This document shows positions 1,910 to 34,318 of a stretch of 34,915 nucleotides of DNA, piece after piece. This DNA comes from Desulfuromonas sp. (lineage in GTDB: Bacteria; Desulfobacterota; Desulfuromonadia; Desulfuromonadales; UBA2294), in contig PKUH01000080.1 in assembly GCA_002869615.1 (NCBI GenBank), forward strand, positions 1-34,915, given 5' to 3'. Below the pieces are notes generated by a model, which saw nothing but the letters and a program-made list of their open reading frames with translations, was not told where the DNA came from and did no database searches. Numbering within the stretch: position 1 is the first letter of the stretch; each line of letters opens with the position of its first letter. Position numbers and translations under genes: made by a program.

Positions 1910-3265
1910 TTATTTGTTCTTTTTTCCATGCACATCCGGGTGGTGCTCCACCATGCAGGAATCGCAGATGCCATGGCTGAACACCATTCCGGCATGCCGG
2001 GACAGATAATCCTCAATCCTGTTCCATAAACCATCATCATCCCTGACTTTCTTGCAGTGCATACAGATGGGAAAAATGTTTCTCAAGTCCTCTATTTCCT
2101 GTATCGACCTGTCCAACTCAGAATCGATAACGTCCTTCTCTTCCTGGAGGATCTGTTTCTCCTGCTCAAGCCGACTCTTTTCGATAAGCAGTCCGTAACT
2201 GCCCAGCAACGGCTTAAGAAATTCAACGTCGGCATCGCTATAGCCATCCTCGCGGTTGGATACGGCCATAATTCCGACAATCTCTCCGCCTGAATCCCGA
2301 ATTGGCATGCCGAGGAAAGATTTCAGCGGCGGATGGCCGGATTCCTTGGGATATCCGCCCCGACGCGGATCGGCATCAGGATCATTTGCAATCACCGGTT
2401 CTCCGGTTTTGAATACAGACCCCCAGAGACTGTCAAAATTGAAAAAATCAAGTCCCGAGGCGACGTTCTCGTTGTAAAAACGATCCGTATCATCGTTCCA
2501 GGCGATATTGGAAATCCCGTGCGACTTTATGAACGGCGTCCCGTCATCCTGGTGCATCAACTCGCAGATAAACCCGATCTCGCTGTCGGTCAGGTCGATC
2601 AGATTCTGCAACGTTCTCTCGCACCAGCCATAGTATATCCCCTTGTCCATGTAGTCTTGCTGCAGGACGACAATCGACTCCATCAGCAGCTTTTTTCTGA
2701 CCAGCCGGTTCTCCGACCTGACGCGCAAAATAGCATTTTTGGTGAGTTGCGCCATCATCTTGACACTTGCCAATACCAGTTCATTCCTCGCGATGGTCCC
2801 ACCGACCATATCGACACCCATAAAACCATACAAAGCGTCACCCTCGTATATGGGCACAACCAGAATACTCGTAATGCCCTGCTCCAGCCAATGACCTTTT
2901 TCAGCGCGGCATTCATCAGGAAGACAGCGTACGTCGTCAACACAAACTGACTCGTTTGCCATCATTTTACTGAAAAACCATGGCAGTTCGGACTCAACAT
3001 CAACCTGTTTCAGGTTGGCAATTTCTGCACTCACATCATCCCGGGTCCATTCATGCGTATTGCTGAAGGTTCCTCTCGTATCAATACCGGCATCATTTTG
3101 AAACAGGTAAACCCGATCTGCGTCAAAATGTTCGCCAATAGCAGCAAGGGCTTCAGTGATCACCTGGTCCAGACCAGACTCTGAACTTTCCAGAAAGCTG
3201 GTTGCCAAAGAGGTAAGTTTTTGTTCCAACTCGATTAATTTTTCATATGCTTTTGTGTTGTACAT
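1910..3265 (-). CDS. Double-GAF sensor protein with C-terminal CxxC...HGICxxC domain
   Basis: The protein has 451 residues and no transmembrane segment. Two GAF-type modules can be seen: residues about 25-185 (ITSILVVPIYEGDALYGFMGVDMV is the typical core) and about 200-370 (FLGMPIRDSGGEIVGIMAVSNR). A coiled-coil stretch (about 370-400) follows. The protein ends in a small Cys-rich module, ICMHCKKVRDDDGLW ... FSHGICDSC, which in many deltaproteobacterial signalling proteins caps PAS/GAF sensors and may bind a metal. There is no kinase, GGDEF or HD output domain, so how the signal leaves the protein is unknown. The same tail occurs in the gene at 33575-34318. The ATG has no clear Shine-Dalgarno sequence. 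The flanking 3266-3542 region is AT-rich and holds no gene. Confidence 0.75.
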   Translation of the reverse strand: MYNTKAYEKLIELEQKLTSLATSFLESSESGLDQVITEALAAIGEHFDADRVYLFQNDAGIDTRGTFSNTHEWTRDDVSAEIANLKQVDVESELPWFFSKMMANESVCVDDVRCLPDECRAEKGHWLEQGITSILVVPIYEGDALYGFMGVDMVGGTIARNELVLASVKMMAQLTKNAILRVRSENRLVRKKLLMESIVVLQQDYMDKGIYYGWCERTLQNLIDLTDSEIGFICELMHQDDGTPFIKSHGISNIAWNDDTDRFYNENVASGLDFFNFDSLWGSVFKTGEPVIANDPDADPRRGGYPKESGHPPLKSFLGMPIRDSGGEIVGIMAVSNREDGYSDADVEFLKPLLGSYGLLIEKSRLEQEKQILQEEKDVIDSELDRSIQEIEDLRNIFPICMHCKKVRDDDGLWNRIEDYLSRHAGMVFSHGICDSCMVEHHPDVHGKKNK

Positions 3266-12392: not shown

Positions 12393-12427
12393 TAAAGGAC
12401 ACAAATGCGAGAAAGGGAAATTTACTT

Positions 12428-12925
12428 ATGCGATATTTCACGCACCTGTCACTACTGGTCCTGGCCTGTTTCCTGGCGCCGCTCATGGCATTTACCGGGG
12501 TCGCCTATGGTCAGGACAACGCCCGGGACATGCTGGTTTACAAGACACCCGGCTGAGGCTGTTGCAAGGGCTGGGGCGACCATCTCGAGGAAGCAGGCTT
12601 CACCATCCGTTACCAAGACACCGGCCGGATAACCGAGCTCAAACGGAGTTACGGTCTTCCTGATAAGCTTCGCTCCTGCCATACAGCCATCGTCGATGGC
12701 TATATCATTGAAGGTCATGTTCCGGGTGAACAGATCCATCGTCTACTGGAGACCAGACCGCCGATTAACGGACTCAGCGTACCCGGGATGCCGATCGGGT
12801 CGCCCGGAATGGAATCGGACACCATACCGGCACAGCCTTACAAGGTTTATTCTTTTGACAGACAGGGGAATATTTCAGTCTTTGCAGAATATCCCGGCGC
12901 CAATCCCGGGCAAAGAAAACAATAA
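12428..12925 (+). CDS. Selenocysteine-containing CopG-like protein (DUF411)
   Basis: Reading through one in-frame TGA (12554-12556) gives a complete 165-residue DUF411 protein. It has a hydrophobic export signal (about 6-28), then VYKTPG-U43-GCCKGWGDHLEEAGF, CHTAIVDGYIIEGHVP (Cys84) and VPGMPIGSPGME (119-129), ending with TAA at 12923. DUF411 proteins normally have CxCC at this point, so TGA replaces exactly the first Cys while Cys45, Cys46 and His52 remain. In Pseudomonas CopG, a DUF411 protein, the conserved cysteines hold a copper cluster, so a periplasmic copper role is likely. Homology continues in the same frame on both sides of the TGA, which argues against a pseudogene. A possible SECIS hairpin follows the codon. 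The ribosome-binding site (AGGGAAA) is modest. No selA/B/C/D gene is in the window. Confidence 0.88.
12557..12584 (+). promoter_or_regulatory. Candidate bacterial SECIS stem-loop downstream of the UGA codon
   Basis: GUUGC (12561-12565) pairs with GCGAC (12576-12580) around the loop AAGGGCUGGG, and the two outer G residues (12557-12558) can pair with U12583 and C12584 across a small internal loop. The loop has the G-rich/U composition seen in bacterial SECIS elements. It begins close to the UGA (about 9 bases), nearer than is usual, so the exact fold is uncertain. A second hairpin, GAAG/CUUC, lies about 35 bases after the UGA. Confidence 0.45.
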
Positions 12926-33241: not shown

Positions 33242-33590
33242 ATCGGACTTCGTCTGTGCAGCATTCGCCTTGAGAACGTCCATCCTTGGCATCCCGGTGA
33301 CGAGACCACGATCATGACCGAGAGTATGCTCGACCTCGAACTCTTCACAAAAAAGGCAGCGTTTGACCTGGTGATTCCCGGTCAATCTATGAAAAAATCT
33401 CAGGATTGGGGTTATCGAAGGGGGTGCTGCAGACCTGCCCTGATCCTCCGATCATCCTTTGTAGCGGCTACAGTAGCAAAGTCAATGAAGAGATGGTCAG
33501 AGTACATGGATTTTATCATCAAATGAATCCGGGAGGAATGAAGTACAATTTTTCAGATTTTTGGAGGCGCTGGATCAACGTGGACGCTTA
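33242..33590 (+). pseudogene. Decayed response-regulator receiver domain
   Basis: Two overlapping frames together give a receiver-like protein. Frame one (from about 33314) reads LELFTKKAAFDLVIPGQSM, matching the beta-3/phospho-site region but with the acceptor Asp replaced by Gly. After a frame change near 33395-33406, frame two reads GLSKGVLQTCPDPPIILCSGYSSKVNEEMV, the beta-4 region, then a HGFYHQMNP segment where the conserved Lys is Asn. Both catalytic positions are lost and the reading frame is broken, so this is a relic. Upstream frames (33242-33313) are interrupted by stops. It lies between the NtrX-like gene and a GAF sensor gene. Nothing else is recognisable in 33036-33241. Confidence 0.6.
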
Positions 33591-34318
33591 AGATAATCGC
33601 CGAAACGTTCGGCCATACAGGTATCGCAAATACCATGGCTGAATTGAGCTTCCGAGCGTGACTCAATATATTCCTCAAGGCGACTCCAGTACCCGGCGTC
33701 GTCGCGAATCCCTTTACAATAAGAACAAATTGGAATGATTCCCTTGAGTGCTACAATTTCTTCAAGATAACGACTGTTTTGTAAAGCGATCGCAGCGAGT
33801 TCACCGAAGACCGTAGCCATTTCGGCGTCGCGGTCATTAAAATCGCCCGGTTTGTTGGCCATTCCAATGATGCCAACGGTCTTTCCGTCAATAACAAGCG
33901 GTGAAAACATGACGTTTTTTAGACCCATATGCCCTTCCGGCATCATTTCGGCGTGATCACTGTTCATGAAGTCGTTATGATAAACAGCACAATTACCCTG
34001 ATATGCCTCTTCCCGCAGGCCACGAATCGGCATCGGCAAATCAGGGTCAACAGTGCAATGTGCTCCACCATCCTCGAGAAAAAGGACTTCGTTTTCATCA
34101 CCGTCATCCGTAAGCAATGCAACATAACCGGAGGTCGAACCGATCAGGCGGCTGCAATGATCAAAAATTTCCCTGGCCGAGGCAGCAAAGGTTCTTTTCC
34201 CAAGAATCGACCTTGCACCGTTGATAATCGCGCGCAACTCTTCTTCTTTGTTTTTGAGAGCTTGATTAGAAGTGATTTCAGATTGCAATGACTTGTCCTC
34301 ACCGATCAGGAATATCAT
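33575..34318 (-). CDS. GAF-domain sensor protein with C-terminal CxxC...HGICxxC domain
   Basis: The protein has 247 residues. After a short N-terminal helix (about 20-45), one GAF domain (about 45-190) shows SGYVALLTDDG, MFSPLVIDGKTVGIIGMANKPGDF and FGELAAIALQNSRYLEE. The C-terminal module reads ICSYCKGIRDDAGYWSRLEEY ... FSHGICDTC, the same Cys-rich tail as the protein encoded at 1910-3265. No output domain is present. The ATG at 34318 has no good ribosome-binding site, so the true start may differ or the protein may be a fragment of a longer sensor. The neighbouring receiver relic supports decay of a larger signalling locus. Confidence 0.7.
   Translation of the reverse strand: MIFLIGEDKSLQSEITSNQALKNKEEELRAIINGARSILGKRTFAASAREIFDHCSRLIGSTSGYVALLTDDGDENEVLFLEDGGAHCTVDPDLPMPIRGLREEAYQGNCAVYHNDFMNSDHAEMMPEGHMGLKNVMFSPLVIDGKTVGIIGMANKPGDFNDRDAEMATVFGELAAIALQNSRYLEEIVALKGIIPICSYCKGIRDDAGYWSRLEEYIESRSEAQFSHGICDTCMAERFGDYLKRPR

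Follow-up and report, generated by a model that had tools for sequence, protein, structure and literature searches.

A CopG (DUF411) gene with an in-frame UGA, most likely read as selenocysteine, at the first position of its copper motif

The locus described here raises the question of how a stop codon in the middle of a conserved metal site is read, if it is read at all. It lies in a stretch of 34,915 nucleotides (the window), positions 1 to 34,915 of contig PKUH01000080.1 of the Desulfuromonas sp. assembly GCA_002869615.1. An earlier note on this DNA had claimed a 165-codon frame with a TGA at codon 43 and DUF411 homology on both sides of it, and had proposed that the TGA, standing where a CxCC copper motif has its first Cys, encodes selenocysteine (Sec). 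The frame is borne out at 12428-12925; its one in-frame TGA occupies 12554-12556, and there is no further internal stop. The features of the gene are as follows.

12412..12418, + strand: likely ribosome-binding site AAAGGGA, 10 nt 5' of the ATG, read directly
12428..12925, + strand: copG/DUF411 selenoprotein gene, 165 codons from ATG to TAA, with TGA taken as Sec
12428..12511, + strand: putative export signal, residues 1-28, with a hydrophobic core, assigned by eye from the sequence
12554..12556, + strand: in-frame TGA, Sec43, position 1 of the UGCC motif, from the translation and the homologue alignment
12560..12565, + strand: Cys45-Cys46 of UGCC, invariant in the 49-sequence alignment
12571..12587, + strand: SECIS-like apical hairpin, its loop ~18-20 nt 3' of the UGA, with modest support
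12668..12811, + strand: match to the PF04214 DUF411 domain, from a profile search
12677..12682, + strand: Cys84-His85, invariant in the 49-sequence alignment
12788..12811, + strand: Met121 to Met128 (GMPIGSPGM), both Met invariant in the 49-sequence alignment

When the TGA is read as Cys, PF04214 matches residues 81-128 with 90.3 bits (cut-off 27; 92.8 bits in the genome-wide search), and PDB entry 6wis aligns with residues 37-157 without a break across the TGA, so that homology does extend to both sides of the codon. The identity to Pseudomonas aeruginosa CopG is ~42% over 125 residues. Of 49 aligned homologues, 19 are Sec forms, entered with Cys; every other row has Cys in the column of the TGA, placing the codon exactly where the note had put it. 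With the TGA taken as Cys, the invariant residues are C43, C45, C46, W49, C84, H85, M121 and M128, and the CopG motif set is thus kept (UGCC, C84-H85, M121 and M128; strictly UxCC, since the first position is a TGA). An AlphaFold model with Cys for Sec has a mean pLDDT of 87, and its sole strong fold matches are the CopG structures 6wis and 6wje (Z 20.7, 1.5 A over 124-125 residues), followed by glutaredoxins at Z 6.6. Sequence and predicted fold together support the assignment of the gene product to CopG. Its signal-like N-terminus, judged by eye, makes export to the periplasm likely, with cleavage likely at AYG|Q; model confidence is low across residues 1-28. The N-termini of four Chloroflexota or Halieaceae-labelled Sec forms (L032, L045, L071 and L072) are lipobox-like (LLSAC and LMAAC among them), and these proteins may therefore be lipoproteins instead of soluble periplasmic proteins.

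The comparison of the codon among relatives, proposed in the note, gives a consistent result. The gene is present in 12 of 136 genomes from the window's order, without exception with TGA at the position of codon 43; a sample of 395 genomes from the phylum gave only two weak, partial matches beyond the window's own. Among the best 80 loci in the GTDB collection, 10 have TGA and 70 have TGC or TGT. Two of these ten are duplicates of genomes from the order and four are from Chloroflexota, with one each from Acidobacteriota, Gemmatimonadota, Rokubacteriota and a contig labelled Halieaceae. The last is a 3.7 kb contig of a MAG that clusters with Chloroflexota in the tree, and its short length and this grouping suggest that the label may be a binning error. 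Two extra TGA copies, both on long contigs, were found among 400 genomes belonging to the same phylum as the Chloroflexota locus L032, and the total is 22 distinct genomes of several phyla with TGA at the same codon. Plasmids yielded 3451 records with DUF411, at <60% identity. On the best tree the 22 Sec rows require six changes, but the data do not reject their union in one clade (p-AU 0.515); both one origin followed by transfer and several origins are therefore compatible with the tree.

These observations bear directly on whether the TGA has simply disabled the gene or reflects an error of sequencing. A standard gene finder stops at codon 43, as one would expect of a broken gene, and as the note had foreseen in claiming that gene callers miss it because the stop codon cuts the gene; a relative in the same genus, G133, also retains the TGA gene while its assembly has no SelB or tRNA-Sec match. 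Against this stand the TGA at one codon across 22 genomes of several phyla and a downstream frame without any second stop that is under purifying selection. The codons 3' of the TGA have NG86 dN/dS values of 0.11-0.34 in the nine computable pairs, and the same-genus pair gives 0.31/1.90 by NG86 for the codons after the TGA. Occurrence of the same-codon TGA in independent genomes, in combination with purifying selection, excludes a pseudogene or a sequencing error, for which we would retain only a negligible probability. A global reassignment of the code is ruled out as well, because TGA is the ordinary stop of 16 of the 33 genes in the window, which indicates an event specific to this site.

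The genome to which the window belongs encodes the machinery that such an event would call on. A tRNA-Sec with anticodon tca scores 75.8 bits, and frames for selA, selB and selD share a contig with this tRNA gene (selC), so that all four genes named in the note are present. The selB frame was identified by profile (380 bits, TIGR00475), and selA and selD were named by reading their sequences. SelD is itself a selenoprotein, with an in-frame TGA in SGUAAK (L010:3408-4445, contig C106); plain annotation begins this gene too late, at an internal GTG. Across genomes, SelB is above the cut-off in 20 of 22 with the TGA form and in 10 of 39 with the Cys form, these rows being related by descent. Fisher's exact test on the first 20 gives p 3.7e-6 when kinship among the rows is ignored, and the pairs on the tree are too few for Sec and SelB to be compared over independent pairs. 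In G133, which is 87% complete, a search found neither SelB nor tRNA-Sec; in the 2.1 Mb genome G529 a search found no SelB, and tRNA-Sec is present at 75.6 bits. Missing contigs would be the simplest reading of the absence of SelB from both assemblies, and for G133 the alternatives are missing contigs or a recent loss of Sec decoding.

The signal that would direct Sec insertion is less clear. Folded from the UGA, the window RNA has an energy of -17 kcal/mol (z -1.0) and presents an apical loop GGCGA 18 nt past the UGA, a position that fits the usual geometry of a bacterial SECIS. Folding energies over 51 nt from the codon, compared with synonymous recoding, do not separate TGA genes from Cys genes, and in a crude enumeration of bSECIS elements the TGA genes score no better. 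We also scanned all six-pair hairpins against synonymous recoding. In TGA genes the highest degree of pairing belongs to a hairpin whose 5-nt loop lies at +20 (0.83 vs 0.75 when recoded, z 3.1), and in Cys genes the same hairpin shows no such excess (0.71 vs 0.71 recoded). Since at least one other scanned hairpin reached a higher z, and the sequences share ancestry, support for a SECIS is modest, and the evidence is positive but weak. The note's expectation of a SECIS thus stands as far as a hairpin of suitable geometry is concerned, but its statistical support is only modest.

A weak SECIS, together with the Cys found in homologues at this position, would agree with near-cognate decoding of the UGA as Cys or Trp, in which case the gene would make a normal CopG by leakage through the stop. 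We consider this very improbable, as tRNA-Sec, SelA, SelB and SelD are all encoded in the genome, most TGA forms come from genomes that also have SelB, and TGA terminates nearly half of the window's genes normally. Conservation of the TGA in near and far relatives and the selC-selA-selB-selD set support the Sec insertion that the note had inferred, and we regard it as strongly indicated by the sequence data that UGA43 is read through, and as Sec.

What the selenoprotein does can be approached from the known members of the family. A review (PMC7558416) describes CopG as a periplasmic thioredoxin-like protein in which CxCC and two Met hold a tetranuclear copper cluster; it has a part in copper resistance under anaerobic conditions and may act by oxidising Cu(I) or transferring copper onward. 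The present protein shares with P. aeruginosa CopG (6WIS/6WJE, PF04214) its domain, predicted fold, CxCC position, Cys-His, Met residues and, probably, export, and differs from it at the first position of CxCC, where the codon is UGA instead of one for Cys. By this analogy Met121 and Met128 may correspond to the pair of Met that ligate copper in CopG (PMC7558416), and copper binding is predicted by homology. The window neighbours of the gene include no copper genes. In the order genome G070 (L120:854-7237) the Sec-CopG gene shares its strand with the adjacent genes for CopB and a multicopper oxidase; farther along come MerR and MerT, and the whole forms a metal-resistance neighbourhood. There AAAGGGAA, which resembles the AAAGGGA of the window, precedes the gene of this relative.

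A different function would follow if the protein were a thiol/selenol redox enzyme acting through a U43-C46 UxxC pair, for example in disulfide exchange or metalloid reduction, with copper binding secondary or absent. The predicted thioredoxin/glutaredoxin-like fold agrees with such a role, as does the UxxC pair contained in UGCC, with Sec in the usual nucleophile position, and redox enzymes are the majority of known selenoproteins (PMC13188914). Indeed, bacterial UxxC selenoproteins of the Trx, Grx and DsbG-like types likewise have Sec for the N-terminal Cys in a thioredoxin-like fold (PMC13188914). Unlike them, the protein described here has UGCC with a third chalcogen residue, a distal Cys-His and Met, and the DUF411 domain. 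Every CopG-type residue is retained, including C45, C84-H85 and both Met, and one Sec form adjoins copper-resistance genes, as noted above for G070. On balance we find the redox function unlikely, and favor an exported CopG (DUF411) selenoprotein in which UGA43 is Sec and which most likely binds Cu(I) and protects against copper, a reading to which we assign a probability of roughly 0.8.

For this copper-protective selenoprotein, the following course of events is proposed. The ribosome would decode UGA43 as selenocysteine by means of the genome-encoded SelB and tRNA-Sec, with the weak hairpin directly 3' of the codon probably directing insertion. The product would be a periplasmic protein of thioredoxin-like fold carrying UGCC, the invariant Cys84-His85 and the two invariant Met. 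It would most likely bind Cu(I), with a selenolate substituting for the first thiolate of the cluster, and could protect the cell by sequestering, oxidising or handing on copper, as proposed for the Cys form of CopG. Selenium might then be a direct copper ligand and raise the affinity for Cu(I) or the redox reactivity or turnover of the site. More tentatively, and with somewhat less than even odds, Sec may serve as a bridging ligand of a natural multinuclear Cu(I) cluster, in an extracytoplasmic copper defence used in several Sec-decoding phyla.

The note knew of no characterised Sec-containing CopG, and the literature that we searched contains no report of one. Neither DUF411 nor PF04214 is listed among the 119 prokaryotic selenoprotein (sub)families tabulated in a 2026 review (PMC13188914), a search of NCBIfam found no model matching Sec-DUF411, and a 2007 paper on stop-codon mining does not mention the family. 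None of the papers searched links DUF411, PF04214 or COG3019 to selenoproteins, and in them copper CopG and selenocysteine occur together only in single incidental mentions. Selenoproteins predicted to handle metals do include a CopZ-family (2Fe-2S) protein, the SO_0444 Cu/Zn efflux transporter, MerT, an E1-E2 ATPase and MbdU (PMC13188914); these share with the present case the replacement of Cys by Sec in a metal-linked protein, but have other domain ids, none of them DUF411 (PMC13188914). The Sec form of the known CopG family is absent from the published selenoprotein family table and is apparently new. The bacterial selenoproteome would thus gain a family that, by its presence in several phyla, is not one genome's curiosity. 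Its predicted function would link selenium to copper detoxification and provide a possible natural example of a copper cluster with selenium among its ligands, and the solved Cys homologue (6WIS/6WJE) permits a direct comparison of Sec with Cys.

Finally, the surroundings of the gene in the window are unrelated to it, and Sec-copG is therefore probably a single-gene unit there. It is divergent from a Methyltransf_28 gene, an arrangement kept within the genus (in G133, where the neighbour was identified by sequence resemblance at the start of its frame). Elsewhere in the window, two GAF-domain proteins (1910-3265 and 33575-34318, both on the - strand) have a similar C-terminal tail, PICxxCKxxRDDxGxWxxxExYxxxxxxxxFSHGICDxCM, which is perhaps a small metal-binding module.
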